Below are positions 10,356 to 43,713 of a stretch of DNA of 57,981 nt, one piece after another (position 1 is the stretch's first letter; every line of letters starts with the position of its first letter). Under the pieces are notes generated by a model, which worked only from the letters and a program-made list of their open reading frames with translations, searched no databases and was not told where the DNA came from. The stretch covers positions 1-57,981 of the forward strand of contig NZ_ABOX02000048.1 in the NCBI RefSeq assembly GCF_000172555.1, in the 5' to 3' direction. The position numbers were made by a program, and so were the translations under genes. Source of the DNA: Pedosphaera parvula Ellin514. GTDB taxonomy: Bacteria > Verrucomicrobiota > Verrucomicrobiia > Limisphaerales > Pedosphaeraceae.

Positions 10356-11294
10356 TCAAGGGGTTTTCAATGGCTTTAACAGGATTTGTCGCACATCCAT
10401 GACTGCATCGGCATGTTTATTCCTGGGCCGCACCGCAATGGAATGGATGCCGGCCCGGGAGAGGTTTACCCTGCCAATCTGTCGAGGCACGAAGTTCTGA
10501 AAATGCCCGGTCTCCTCTACAACCAAGGAAAACCTCTCGCCATCGACAACCACATCCACATCACTTCCACCCTGCCCCTTCCCGCACCCTTGCCACAATT
10601 CAACGTCGTACGTACCCAGCTGCCTCACAGTGAATTTCCATTCCGCCCAATCCTGTGGATTCACCCAATAACCAAGGCAGTTTTTCTTCTCATTCGGCTC
10701 ATAACGCATGGTTACGCTATGAGTGATCGCATTGCTCGCATGTAATGTAATCGGTCCGTCGCCTTGCTGAATAACAGACTTTCCTTCAGGCGCCGGTCGA
10801 AGGATGATGGCTGCTAAATTCAGGGCGCCGAGGGAATTCGTATCTCCACTCCTCACCTGCAAGGAAAATGGTTCTACTTTCTCCACGTAAACGCGGCCAA
10901 TAAGGAGGTTGGTGAAATGCGAAGTGTCGCCAGTCGATGAGTAACTGGCAGAAAATTGTCTCCCGGCCACTTCGACCTGCATTGTACCGCCATTGGTCTC
11001 TGCAGAATACGAAATATTCACTTCGTACATTCCCCAGCGAGTCGGCTTGTAATTCCAGGACACAACATCGGAGGTATGAATCAAGGAAACTGACTTGGTG
11101 CTCAATTTCGTCTCCACTCCTGCTGCACCTCCCGCAAGTTGAGCATCCACCGGGAGAAAGGAAATATCGCCCCATGCGACCTCAACCAGCCGGTTCGTTG
11201 CTGTCCCTTCCGCTGCTCCTAGGTTTTCGGCAAGGGCAACCACGACACCGCAAACCAGAAAGCAAAAACAGCGCACGATTAAAGGTTGGGGCAT
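10356..11294 (-). CDS. Secreted protein with two tandem carbohydrate-binding-like domains
   Basis: A 312-residue secreted protein. I placed the start at the ATG at 11294, which gives MPQPLIVRCFCFLVCGVVVAL as signal peptide. The longer open frame upstream (to 11516) reads through a repeat element and is not conserved-looking. Two beta-sandwich repeats of about 110 residues follow: the first around WGMYEVNISYSAETNGGTM, the second around LGTYDVELWQGCGKGQGGSD. Both end in similar strands, LAAIILRP and VRQILLKP. This pattern is seen in accessory domains of sulfatases and fucosidases (DUF5077/CBM6-35-like). No catalytic domain is present. It lies tail to tail with the glycosidase gene, so it could bind the same glycan, but it is not in its operon. 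Confidence 0.72.
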   Translation of the reverse strand: MPQPLIVRCFCFLVCGVVVALAENLGAAEGTATNRLVEVAWGDISFLPVDAQLAGGAAGVETKLSTKSVSLIHTSDVVSWNYKPTRWGMYEVNISYSAETNGGTMQVEVAGRQFSASYSSTGDTSHFTNLLIGRVYVEKVEPFSLQVRSGDTNSLGALNLAAIILRPAPEGKSVIQQGDGPITLHASNAITHSVTMRYEPNEKKNCLGYWVNPQDWAEWKFTVRQLGTYDVELWQGCGKGQGGSDVDVVVDGERFSLVVEETGHFQNFVPRQIGRVNLSRAGIHSIAVRPRNKHADAVMDVRQILLKPLKTP

Positions 11295-11352
11295 ATAGGA
11301 GTAATTGAACTTAAGATTATCGAGATACTTCCATACCTGGAAGTTTAAACTC

Positions 11353-11625
11353 CATGGCAGGCGCATCTCAATGCCACCGCAATCCTGTGGAAAAACCCTT
11401 AACTTTGCGATTTGGCGCAACTCCGAAATCCTGCCACGGCTAATGCTTGCTTCATCAATTGAGGCGCTCCAGCCAACATTTTTAGACGACTCTGGCAGGA
11501 CATAAACTACCCGCATTGAGAGCAGGCAATGCGGGTAGTTTAAAAATGATGGAACTTCGTGTCGAGAAAAATGGTGTGGCGGCGAAACTCTGGGGGGTAG
11601 AACCCATTTAAATGCGTCTGCCCTG
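11353..11625 (-). mobile_element. MITE-like element, copy 1 (inverted orientation)
   Basis: A 273-bp non-coding repeat, related along its length to 30612-30883 and 43393-43663. Its ends are CATGGCAGGCGCAT (11353-11366) and ATGCGTCTGCCCTG (11612-11625), an imperfect 14-bp terminal inverted repeat. The 10 bp GTTTAAACTC occurs directly on both sides (11343-11352 and 11626-11635), a perfect target-site duplication. An internal hairpin with perfect 14-bp arms lies at 11504-11541. Because the repeat carries an open frame, it extends the carbohydrate-binding protein's frame upstream, which is why a start inside the repeat is probably wrong. Confidence 0.88.
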
Positions 11626-11703
11626 GTTTAAACTCCAACTCACACATTTACACATGAACCCTGCGAGGAGTTAAATGTACAAAGGCTCGTGATTTGATTC
11701 AGA

Positions 11704-28901: not shown

Positions 28902-30530
28902 TTACTTTGCCAACCCAAGGGAGCCCGATGAGTTCCGGGAAAACCGTTTTAGGGCAAGCTCGCGAAAATTGCGTGTTAATTGCCAATGGGCGGTGAAACC
29001 AAAGACACCATCAGCCAGCACCCCGAATGCGAACCACCAGCCTAGATAGAATTTCCAACCCGGCTCCGGTATCCCCAGCCATGCCAGGATGTTTGCGATC
29101 ACTGCCACCGCGCCCAGAAGCAACCATGGCACGATCATTACCCGCGTGATCGTGCTTACACTTGCATGGTTCGGACTTTGAGCGGTTAGCGCTGTTGCCA
29201 TCGCAACCCAACTCAAAGCCACCGCATCCGCGATCAGCATTACGCTCCCGTAAATCGACATGGTCAAGATCTTCGCGGTGAACTGGGGCGATTCTCCGGC
29301 TGCTACCCACATAAAAGCTAATTCCAAAACGATCACGACCAGCACCGGCACGAGAAACTGTCGTCGCAAGGCCAGAAGTTGTCCCCGCAATATGTCCTGC
29401 ACACTCAGACGTGTGGAGAGTAATAATTCCAAAGCACCTGCTTTTTGATCTTCCGCCAACCGTTGCCCTGCCTCCAGGGCAATCCACAGCTTGAGGGCTG
29501 AATTCACAATCAATGCCATGGTCACGCCCGTCGTTACATCCAGCCACAGGCGTCCTGCAGACATCCAGCCAGAGATCCACCAACCTCCCATCAAGCCAAG
29601 AAACAACCAGACGTGCAGCGGCTTCATCCTCGCCCGGCTCGCCAGCCAATAAATCGCATTCACATCCAGCAGGCGTCTTCGAAATACTTTCCGTTTCGCC
29701 GCTCCTCCATAGTTCACTGCCTGCCGAAGCTCGCGCCATCTCTTCCTTCCAGCAGGCGCTGGTTTGTCCTGCCAAAATCGGGGAACGATCATGCACGCCA
29801 GCACGACCAGCAGCCAGGTGAGGCCATGAACCACCGCCAACGAAATCCAAAAATGCTCCTTAAGCCCGGTATAGGGAGCGTCAAAACTGAGATAAAAGGA
29901 ATAAAATGGACAGGCCAGCAGCAATTCAGGAATGAACCTGTGCGGAGCCCCGAGTGCAGCCACTGCCCCTGCGCACGCAGGAAGTGCGGCAACCAGTAAT
30001 AGGAACAAAAGGAAGTTGGCGCCAAACGCCTGACGACTATCCCGGCTGAACGAGGAAACAAATACTCCGATTGCGAGTGAAAACAAACAGGTATTTATGA
30101 GCACCACCACCATCCGCCAAAATTCGCCATTCGTCACGCCGCCCATGAGCAGCGGCACCGCCAGCACTGGGAATACCGCCAGCAATCCATAAAAACCATT
30201 CACGGACGTCGCGGCCAACTTGCCACACACCACGTCATACCCTTTCAGGTCGGTCAGAAACAACAATCCCAGTGTTCCCTCTCGTTTCTCTTCACTCAGG
30301 CAATCTGCCGTCGAACGCCGCCCCGCTGCCAGGCAATACAACAGACAGAGAAACGACAGGGCTTGGAATAGGACATGCCCCCGCTCCTGCGGTGGCCTTC
30401 CGGCCCCCGCTACATAAACGAAAACCCCAAGCACGATCGCAATCAGGGCCATCGCCATGCGGGTCAGGTACGTGCCACGCCTGCGCGCAGTAACACGCAA
30501 CTCGCGATCCACAATGGGCAGGAATGTCAT
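28902..30530 (-). CDS. ABC-2 type transporter permease
   Basis: A 542-residue membrane protein with about eleven hydrophobic segments. The block DCLSEEKREGTLGLLFLTDLKGYDVVCGKLAA, with LSEEKREGTLGLL as its core, is typical of ABC-2 permeases of the ABC2_membrane_2 group. A second copy of the same theme occurs in the C-terminal half (EDQKAGALELLLSTRLSVQDIL), so the protein is a fused tandem permease. The ATP-binding partner is not in the neighbourhood; the plus-strand genes alongside are unrelated. It may assist export of a polymer or drug, but the substrate is unknown. The start is the ATG at 30530. Confidence 0.82.
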   Translation of the reverse strand: MTFLPIVDRELRVTARRRGTYLTRMAMALIAIVLGVFVYVAGAGRPPQERGHVLFQALSFLCLLYCLAAGRRSTADCLSEEKREGTLGLLFLTDLKGYDVVCGKLAATSVNGFYGLLAVFPVLAVPLLMGGVTNGEFWRMVVVLINTCLFSLAIGVFVSSFSRDSRQAFGANFLLFLLLVAALPACAGAVAALGAPHRFIPELLLACPFYSFYLSFDAPYTGLKEHFWISLAVVHGLTWLLVVLACMIVPRFWQDKPAPAGRKRWRELRQAVNYGGAAKRKVFRRRLLDVNAIYWLASRARMKPLHVWLFLGLMGGWWISGWMSAGRLWLDVTTGVTMALIVNSALKLWIALEAGQRLAEDQKAGALELLLSTRLSVQDILRGQLLALRRQFLVPVLVVIVLELAFMWVAAGESPQFTAKILTMSIYGSVMLIADAVALSWVAMATALTAQSPNHASVSTITRVMIVPWLLLGAVAVIANILAWLGIPEPGWKFYLGWWFAFGVLADGVFGFTAHWQLTRNFRELALKRFSRNSSGSLGLAK

Positions 30531-30611
30531 GCCTTGGTAAAATCATTCTCGAAAATTACCGGCCGTATGTCAATGACATCACCGCGCCCCGGCCATCTTC
30601 GGTTCGTCAGG

Positions 30612-30883
30612 CAGGGCAGACGCATCTAAATGGGTTCTGCCCCCAGAAGTTTTTGCCGCCACACCATTTTTCTCGACACGAAGTTCCAATCATTTTTAAA
30701 CTACCCGCATTGGGGGCAGGCAATGCGGGTAGTTTATTTCATGGCTGGTTCGTTTAAAATATGTTGGCTGGGGTGCCTCAATTCATGAAGCATTAGCCGT
30801 GGCAGGATTTCGGAGCTGCGCCAATTCGCAGAACCAAATGTTTTTCCGCCGGATTGCGGTGGCATTGAGATGCGTCTGTCCTG
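30612..30883 (+). mobile_element. MITE-like element, copy 2
   Basis: A 272-bp non-coding repeat. Ends CAGGGCAGACGCAT (30612-30625) and ATGCGTCTGTCCTG (30870-30883) are inverted repeats matching at 13 of 14 positions. The direct repeats GTTCGTCAGG (30602-30611) and GTTCGTGAGG (30884-30893) match at 9 of 10 and look like a target-site duplication. A hairpin with perfect 14-bp arms (AAACTACCCGCATT/AATGCGGGTAGTTT) occupies 30698-30735. It lies between the ABC permease and the DUF4097-like lipoprotein. Confidence 0.9.
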
Positions 30884-30967
30884 GTTCGTGAGGACGATTC
30901 CCTTGTCATTGCCTCTGGCATCGTGTATAAGAGCCTTGGAAGTAAACGCACCCGTCAACTAATCGAA

Positions 30968-32173
30968 ATGAAAACCTTTCGTCACAAACATGCTTTTCGA
31001 CTGATTTGCCTGCTCAGCGCGTCCACCTTGTCCCTCGCGGCCGGTTGTGTGTATGTCCACGATTCCAGTTATAGTTACTCCAGCAGTGATTTCACGGCTG
31101 TGGCCTCTCAGACCCGCAAGGGAGAGCTTCCTGCCGACCTCAAAATCCTGGATGTGGAGAATCATTTCGGCGCCGTCCACGTCGTCGCCACCGACAATGG
31201 CCCCGCACAATTCACCTGGAAACTGACTGTTCACGCGCGCACCGATGTCCTGGCATCCAACGCTCTCGCGGTGGCACGTTGCGAGCCTGTGCGTAATGGC
31301 GATCGCGTTCAGTTGATCCTCATCCCGCCTGATACCGCTGACCGTTTGAGTTATCAATCCGACCTGGAAATTCAAATTCCAAAGGCCACTGCCTTGCGCA
31401 CGCAAAACCATTTCGGGGCAACGACGATCGTTGGCCTCGCCGGGGACGTGGAAGTCGAAGGGCAAAACGGCTCGGTTGAACTGCGCAACCTCGACGGCAA
31501 GGTGCAGGCAAAAACTTCCTTCGCTTTGCTAAGGGTCGATACTTCCGGTCCTGCTTCGTTAAAAAATCAAAACGGACCGATTGAAGCCGTCAACATCCAT
31601 GGTTCATTGGATGCCGAAACAAGTTTTGCCAGCCTGACAGCGCGAGGCGTCAATGGCCCGGTTAAACTGCACAATCAGAACGGTCGCATCGAGGCCCTGC
31701 AAGTCAAAGGCAATGCAGATTTGAAAACCTCCTTTGCTGATTTGGTTGCTCAACAAGTGGAAGGCGATGCCGCATTGGCCAATCAGAACGGCCGCATCAG
31801 CGCTCGCGATATCACCGGCTCAGTAAAAGCGGGCACCTCCTTTGCTACTTTGGAAGTCGAAGGCACCGGTCCAAGCTTTATCTGCCATGACCAGAACGGG
31901 TCAATTCATCTGCGCGCCTCTTCCACTGATCTCGCCAAAATCGACGCCCAAACCTCTTTCGGCACGATTGAAGTGAGTTTGCCTGCCGGATTAAAGCCGG
32001 CCATCCAGGCTCACACCAGTTTCGCGGAAATTGAATCCGATTTTCCTGTGCTCCTGAAACCCAAAGGTCAGGAGGTCTTTGCTGACATTGAAGCTGGCAC
32101 GCCGCGCGTCACCCTGCAAAATCAAAACGGAGGCATCAGAATCCTGCGCGAAAAAGCCACCGCTGCACGTTAA
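30968..32173 (+). CDS. DUF4097-type repeat lipoprotein
   Basis: A 401-residue exported lipoprotein. I placed the start at the ATG at 30968, which gives a lipoprotein signal ending LSLAAGC. The mature part resembles the DUF4097 beta-helix. It alternates two short motifs about every 20 residues: NQNG-type turns (KNQNGPIEAVNIHG, HNQNGRIEALQVKG, ANQNGRISARDITG) and TSFA-type turns (KTSFALLRVDT, ETSFASLTARG, KTSFADLVAQQ). At least four cycles are clear. Ladder repeats of this sort form elongated solenoids. Function is unknown. The MITE-like element lies directly upstream and could carry its promoter. The OsmC-like gene follows 25 bp later. Confidence 0.82.
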   Translation: MKTFRHKHAFRLICLLSASTLSLAAGCVYVHDSSYSYSSSDFTAVASQTRKGELPADLKILDVENHFGAVHVVATDNGPAQFTWKLTVHARTDVLASNALAVARCEPVRNGDRVQLILIPPDTADRLSYQSDLEIQIPKATALRTQNHFGATTIVGLAGDVEVEGQNGSVELRNLDGKVQAKTSFALLRVDTSGPASLKNQNGPIEAVNIHGSLDAETSFASLTARGVNGPVKLHNQNGRIEALQVKGNADLKTSFADLVAQQVEGDAALANQNGRISARDITGSVKAGTSFATLEVEGTGPSFICHDQNGSIHLRASSTDLAKIDAQTSFGTIEVSLPAGLKPAIQAHTSFAEIESDFPVLLKPKGQEVFADIEAGTPRVTLQNQNGGIRILREKATAAR

Positions 32174-43348: not shown

Positions 43349-43392
43349 GTCAGGAGAATAGGCCTCAGCGCCCCATTGATCAAAAGCCAAAT

Positions 43393-43663
43393 CAGGGCAG
43401 ACGCATTTAAATGGGTTGTATCACAGAATTTTTGTCGCCACACAATTGCTCTCGACACGGAGTCCCTTCACTTTTAAACTACCCGCATTTCTTGGCCTAA
43501 ATGCGGGTAGTTTACGTTATTCCGGGATGGTTCGTCTAAAACTTGCCGACCGGGTTTCTTAATTCATGAAGCATTCCGGAAGGTAGCATTTTGGAGTTGC
43601 GCCCATTCGTAAAACCGAGTGATTTCCACCGGATTGTGGTGGCGTTGAGATGCGTCCGCCGTG
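43393..43663 (+). mobile_element. MITE-like element, copy 3
   Basis: A 271-bp repeat related to 30612-30883. Its ends are CAGGGCAGACGCAT (43393-43406) and ATGCGTCCGCCGTG (43650-43663), matching at 12 of 14 as inverted repeats. The flanks AAAGCCAAAT (43383-43392) and AGGGCCAGAT (43664-43673) match at 7 of 10, an aged target-site duplication. The hairpin arms AAACTACCCGCATTT and AAATGCGGGTAGTTT (43476-43513) are perfect and one base pair longer than in the other copies. It lies between the antitoxin gene and the RND pump. Confidence 0.85.
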
Positions 43664-43713
43664 AGGGCCAGATTCAACGTTTACAAATACGGAGAGTTTG
43701 GCAAAGAGACGAG

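Follow-up and report, generated by a model that had tools for sequence, protein, structure and literature searches.

Three repeats in the window, by which we mean the whole stretch of 57,981 nucleotides analysed here (contig C48 of the 7.41-Mb Pedosphaera parvula Ellin514 genome, which is in 102 contigs), are copies of a family of non-autonomous transposons (MITE). The ends and flanking duplications of these elements make it very probable that their copies were mobilised by a transposase of the ISAs1 family, and they contain a conserved internal module, built of two boxes and a palindrome, that probably acts in cis on transcription.

Results

A dispersed family of elements lacking a transposase

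All three copies proposed by an initial annotation of the window were found at the positions that it had given (Table 1). A search of the home genome with one of them returned 31 matches, which were grouped by reading into 18 dispersed loci, i.e. 13 two-ended copies, one with a single good end (C18 near 81789) and four that are truncated (on C1, C12, C13 and C30). Nine short copies of 256-290 bp show pairwise identities of 62-86%, and four further two-ended copies are longer, at 388, 456, 626 and 1056 bp. The terminal inverted repeats that had been described as 14 bp long are real, the length having been put a little short: those of C48a extend over 21 bp at 90% identity. The exact 14-base end, CAGGGCRGACGCAT, occurs at seven sites in the 7.41-Mb genome, all seven being ends of the MITE or of the related insertion sequence (IS) described below; with two mismatches allowed the same search gave 164 matches against 65 for a reversed control, and so is largely background. 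A 21-base end pattern with two mismatches matched 32 times, 25 of these lying at elements of the MITE family or the IS by our own count, whilst its reversed control gave none. As the initial annotation had held, the element is without coding capacity: the longest open reading frame (ORF) wholly within C48a has 52 amino acids, longer ones only cross its borders, and no transposase is encoded.

Table 1. Coordinates of the elements and their parts; positions without a contig name refer to the window.
Feature	Location	Strand	Details
MITE copy C48a	30612..30883	+	272 bp
C48a left terminal inverted repeat	30612..30632	+	partner 30863-30883
C48a right terminal inverted repeat	30863..30883	-	
C48a duplication, left	30602..30611		GTTCGTCAGG; 9/10
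C48a duplication, right	30884..30893		GTTCGTGAGG
C48a promoter-like pair	30673..30702	+	TCGACA-N18-TAAACT
C48a palindrome	30697..30736	+	16-bp arms; overlaps TAAACT box
MITE copy C48b	11353..11625	-	273 bp; inverted
C48b duplication	11343..11352		GTTTAAACTC; 10/10
C48b duplication, other copy	11626..11635		
C48b promoter-like pair	11537..11565	-	TCGACA-N17-TAAACT
C48b palindrome	11503..11542	-	
MITE copy C48c	43393..43663	+	271 bp
C48c duplication	43383..43392		AAAGCCAAAT; 7/10
C48c duplication, other copy	43664..43673		AGGGCCAGAT
C48c promoter-like pair	43452..43480	+	TCGACA-N17-TAAACT
C48c palindrome	43475..43514	+	
Resident IS, home genome	C8:44598-45828		1231 bp
Resident IS, home genome	C17:28878-30108		1231 bp; identical to the C8 copy
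ISAs1 copy, sister species G001	C88:59231-60522		
ISAs1 copy, sister species G001	C166:126-1387		
ISAs1 copy, sister species G001	C300:23525-24127		shortened

Several individual loci have features of their own. The 1056-bp variant (C8:103980-105035) contains an ORF of 154 amino acids with a lipoprotein-like signal sequence, possibly a passenger gene within the MITE. Within another copy there is a palindromic stretch of a different kind, about 100 bp long (C18:81829-81934), for which one other, partial match (87%) was seen at C13:136266-136334. Adjoining C48b, an ORF on the minus strand (10356-11516) extends some 160 bases into the element; the outward-reading end of C48b provides an in-frame ATG at 11366, but a later in-frame ATG at 11294, where the sequence begins like a signal peptide, seems the more likely start.

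Copy-specific 10-bp target-site duplications

The direct repeats flanking the three copies had been scored at 10/10, 9/10 and 7/10 and read as target-site duplications; we obtained the same values, and the reading holds across the genome. Over the 13 two-ended copies the two 10-bp flanks agree at a mean of 7.69/10 positions within copies, compared with 2.88/10 in 156 cross pairs, and none of 200,000 re-pairings of the flanks reached the observed identity, i.e. the duplications are specific to each copy. The assumed length matters: identity is 0.77 at 10 bp, 0.39 and 0.40 at 9 and 11 bp respectively, and at most 0.40 at every other length within 4 to 14. The individual scores are 9, 10, 7, 10, 4, 8, 10, 7, 9, 4, 9, 6 and 7, such that 11 of the 13 copies score at least 6/10; the two scores of 4/10, counted without an indel, appear to be duplications in which a single base was gained or lost. 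In five copies (C25, C8, C34b, C18b and C5) one or both ends were placed by homology, by eye, so that a match could be favoured there; the eight copies with ends taken from the end patterns score 9, 10, 7, 10, 4, 10, 7 and 9.

These results bear on the proposal that the repeats are dispersed regulatory or structural sequences spread by recombination, with no transposon involved. All 26 aligned copies of the internal module are intergenic by our crude gene calls, and the modules of the sister species (G001, same genus) are without transposon ends, as such a proposal would have it; it is nevertheless contradicted in the home genome by the copy-specific 10-bp duplications and by the ends held in common with an IS, and we consider it extremely improbable. 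Also against it is an empty-site comparison for one copy with one flank matched, in which the G001 gene matching the neighbour of C48b has no element beside it; since this gene has 68% DNA identity and the intergenic stretch is unalignable, the comparison can show only the absence of the element.

An ISAs1 insertion sequence with the same ends

The search for an IS sharing the MITE ends, which the initial annotation had suggested, identified a resident 1231-bp ISAs1 element in two identical copies, each flanked by a 10/10 duplication. Its 381-residue protein contains the Pfam domains DDE_Tnp_1_assoc and DDE_Tnp_1 and matches NF033564, the model for the ISAs1 family, at 425 bits, and the transposase gene is intact; a profile search of the home genome at E 0.001 gave no further ISAs1 matches. 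The ends of the IS are CAGGGCAAACGCAT and CAGGGCAGACGCAT, the sequence in common with the MITE being CAGGGCARACGCAT, and the MITE end agrees with one of them at 14/14 positions and with the other at 13/14. This likeness is restricted to about 20 bp at each end. That the MITE arose from the resident IS through an internal deletion is not supported, no likeness beyond the ends being visible by eye.

Because no table of duplication lengths for the family turned up among the listed papers on ISAs1 with direct repeats or duplication lengths, we turned to named elements to test the 10-bp rule. Six were chosen among 12 matches listed, of 843 records with a match; they lie on cyanobacterial or proteobacterial plasmids and represent six genera from two other phyla (Nostoc, Stanieria, Gloeothece with ISCysp7, Azotobacter, Hydrogenophilus and Thiodictyon). 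CAGGGC-type ends are present in all six, with the CAGGGC..CGCAT form of the MITE, and four of the six have 10/10 duplications, so that the 10-bp duplication is common to the MITE and ISAs1 elements. The earlier suggestion that the length points to the helper is thus borne out, in that it fits ISAs1; the length is not special, being usual for this family.

Three ISAs1 copies, each with both ends, were also located in G001. Those on C166 and C88 have the ends CAGGGCARACGCATYTAAAT, which are closer to the MITE ends than are those of the resident IS, and the C88 end matches that of C48b and C48c at 20 of 21 bases. The intact transposase encoded on C166 and that of the resident IS are 67% identical. 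A clear 10-bp duplication was seen at none of the three G001 copies (C166, C88 and C300), and the C88 gene is apparently split over more than one frame.

In the mechanism that we propose, an ISAs1 transposase would recognise the shared ends (CAGGGCARACGCAT...) and excise or copy the MITE, insertion would take place at a 10-bp staggered cut, and host repair would then leave the 10-bp duplication. Assignment of the helper to ISAs1 is well supported, following from the shared ends, the 10-bp duplication on both MITE and IS and the presence in this genome of an intact gene for an ISAs1 transposase; that such a transposase moved the copies we infer from these sequence features. The resident IS is recent, its copies being identical, and the MITE copies with their pairwise identity of 62-86% are old, and so the present IS cannot have recently placed most of them. 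An earlier ISAs1 relative, perhaps with ends like the CAGGGCARACGCATYTAAAT of G001, is probably what would have moved the majority. The same difference in age, and the lack of visible likeness between the interiors of MITE and IS, might be explained by a transposase of a different family that makes long duplications, as do IS4- or IS1-like families, with the ISAs1-like ends a product of coincidence or convergence. Such an explanation would have to account for 14/14 and 13/14 agreement at the ends together with a 10-bp duplication on both elements, for the 20/21 match to the G001 C88 end, and for the recurrence of the CAGGGC..CGCAT form at ISAs1 ends in two other phyla, and we regard it as highly improbable.

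A conserved module of two boxes and a palindrome

Whilst the transposition reading of the initial annotation is supported, it missed a conserved internal module. In it a TCGACA box is followed, after some 17 nt, by a TAAA box running into a palindrome with arms of up to 16 bp and a loop of about 8. All 16 home copies that are not cut off there (of 18 loci) carry the module. The ten-pair core of the palindrome is free of mismatches in 15 of these 16, C13 having one, and in 7 of the 16 it contains only three G-C pairs. We aligned the 16 home copies with 10 of 12 copies from G001 and from G007, a genome of the same family, leaving out C249 and C4. TCGACA is exact in 22 of the 25 copies that reach it (one of the 26 is cut off before the first box), the TAAA(C/A)T box is exact in 22 of 26, and in 21 of 26 copies the boxes are 17 nt apart by alignment column; when the box pair was searched for in eight genomes with any spacing of 10 to 24 nt allowed, two of them gave 19 sites, all at 16 to 18 nt. 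On the forward strand the palindrome is followed by a T-rich tract (4 to 7 of 8 positions; mean 6.0, compared with 3.1 on the other strand, in the 26 copies), the first bases of which belong to the palindrome.

Base pairing in the palindrome is maintained through sequence change, with changes on both sides at 8 of the 16 stem pairs and 97.1% of cells pairing in the 26 aligned copies. None of 500 shuffles reached any of five pairing measures, and slid versions gave at most two doubly changed pairs. Of the home copies 15/16 also meet the exact stem pattern; the relatives were found by stem likeness, so that the paired percentage is inflated for them and the paired changes are unaffected.

Of 293 genomes sampled within the order, 3 gave a match to the palindrome with its commonest stem. 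Among the G001 and G007 copies mean pairwise identity is 0.85 for TCTCGACA and 0.90-0.91 for the arms, compared with 0.37 for the first 13 spacer bases, 0.60 for the loop and 0.43-0.45 for the flanks. Transposon ends were not found on these copies. At least three of them are decayed MITEs, because they can still be matched to the interior of the element: C134 and C209, among ten loci scanned, as far as about position 252 of 274, and, in a separate comparison, C249 as far as 268. C249 and C4 of G001 each lack one whole base pair of the palindrome and C81a has one more; since C81a gained a whole pair, its single U-A cell in the alignment reflects an indel and no substitution. Either selection or template-switch repair would explain such symmetric loss and gain.

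A search of Rfam with positions 29500-31500 gave two matches, both below the gathering score. We rejected assignment to the GTAG REP family, since GTAG here is base-paired with CTAC within the stem and the element is bounded by ISAs1-type ends. Two unrelated genomes, of Xenorhabdus vietnamensis and of a member of Cloacimonadales, each gave a single match to the palindrome pattern, with 6 and 7 bases separating its arms as against 10, probably by chance.

Genomic setting and possible role of the module

Settings were assigned from crude gene calls based on our own codon-usage scoring. The 3' gene lies on the same strand as the module in 14 of 16 home copies (P ~0.002 under a null based on local intergenic lengths) and in 7 of 10 from G001 and G007; for the 5' gene, co-orientation was seen in 13 of 25 overall (10 of 16 home copies, 3 of 9 others). 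Among tandem settings the module is co-oriented in 12 of 16 (9 of 10 in the home genome, 3 of 6 elsewhere), a figure that cannot separate a promoter from a terminator. Divergent settings outnumber convergent ones by 8 to 1, so that a position in front of genes is favoured. No common function was apparent among the downstream genes, which were varied in the 10 scanned of 13 outside the window.

Our preference, as a leaning, is for a promoter, then a terminator, then no function. We tentatively suggest that the module is an outward promoter directed towards the right end, with its start region in the palindrome, a possibility that still falls short of an even chance. In the window copies the boxes resemble the sigma-70 consensus, matching it at only 9 of 12 positions, and promoter-like sites number 3, 2 and 1, compared with 0.4 to 0.6 in shuffles; the position relative to genes mildly favours the same reading. 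Against a promoter, 102 other upstream regions of this genome showed no sigma-70 peak at spacing 17 and provide no yardstick for it, pairing is kept in the -10 region too, which a promoter transcript would not contain, and the T-rich tract suits a terminator better.

It is accordingly worth considering, as a doubtful candidate, that the module is an intrinsic terminator, with A-tract, stem and T-tract forming a hairpin that would stop transcription from the left end and insulate the element or its neighbours. Pairing kept through changes on both arms, as for an RNA hairpin, the T-rich tract on the forward strand and the 12 of 16 co-oriented tandem settings are all consistent with this. It leaves unexplained the conserved TCTCGACA box at its near-fixed distance, however, and the module has no preference for a position behind genes, the 5' gene being co-oriented in merely 13 of 25 cases, with 8 divergent settings to 1 convergent. 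A terminator scan found a partial form in one of the three window copies, with a number of sites similar to that in shuffles, and the three G-C pairs in the core of 7 of 16 home copies likewise count against a terminator.

The paired changes could instead have arisen during replication, imperfect palindromes being corrected by template switching, in a module without function. The gain or loss of whole pairs in C4, C249 and C81a of the sister species is what such correction would produce, but the identity of TCTCGACA in the G001 and G007 relics (0.85, compared with 0.37 for the spacer) is then unexplained, and we think this rather unlikely. Returning to the promoter, a broader scenario can be drawn, which we offer as speculation with the odds against it: an ISAs1-type MITE may have spread a promoter-in-palindrome module through Pedosphaera, with the sister species keeping the module, including the gain or loss of entire pairs in both arms together, while the transposon decayed, so that it was domesticated as a regulatory switch upstream of host genes.

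Discussion

As mobile elements the MITE copies described here are ordinary, and their conserved internal motif may affect the neighbouring gene. The pairing of MITEs with a coresident IS through ends and duplication length, and MITEs with outward promoters, are already known. What the present family adds, for Verrucomicrobiota, is a link between a named family of transposases and a non-autonomous element flanked by 10-bp duplications. If the module is a promoter, this would be a natural transposon handing out a palindrome-covered start site, with copies in two species. In the available portions of the literature naming both ISAs1 and MITEs we found no description of an ISAs1-driven MITE; one paper in that literature submitted three MITEs, with the families not given in the text portion available.

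The closest relatives in form are the ISAs1 insertion sequences themselves, which have the CAGGGC..CGCAT ends and 10-bp duplication of the MITE and differ in that the transposase gene is in the IS and none is in the MITE. Comparison with other systems draws on excerpts of the papers cited. MITEAba12 of Acinetobacter is similarly non-autonomous and shares its ends and duplication with a coresident IS, ISAba12, and it has outward sigma-70-like promoters with transcripts in one direction (PMC6382973); in contrast to the present family its duplication is 9 bp, its ends are different, its copies are 111-114 bp long and little diverged, and no covarying palindrome was seen in the excerpt (PMC6382973). 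The Correia/NEMIS elements of Neisseria are likewise MITEs that have promoters and stem-loops and for the most part map in front of genes, whilst no link to ISAs1 ends or to a box-palindrome arrangement was seen in the portions consulted (PMC10969869, PMC2229807). GTAG REPs, as far as the excerpt describes them, resemble the module in being short palindromes at dispersed sites, in which alternative stem letters are complementary, and in containing GTAG; there, however, GTAG is at the foot of the stem (PMC3733652), whereas here it takes part in the stem pairing, within a palindrome that has arms of up to 16 bp and is carried by a transposon. Finally, according to the part of PMC9208149 available, ISAs1 insertion sequences are overrepresented between convergent genes, in contrast to the MITE described here, which is found mostly in tandem and divergent settings.
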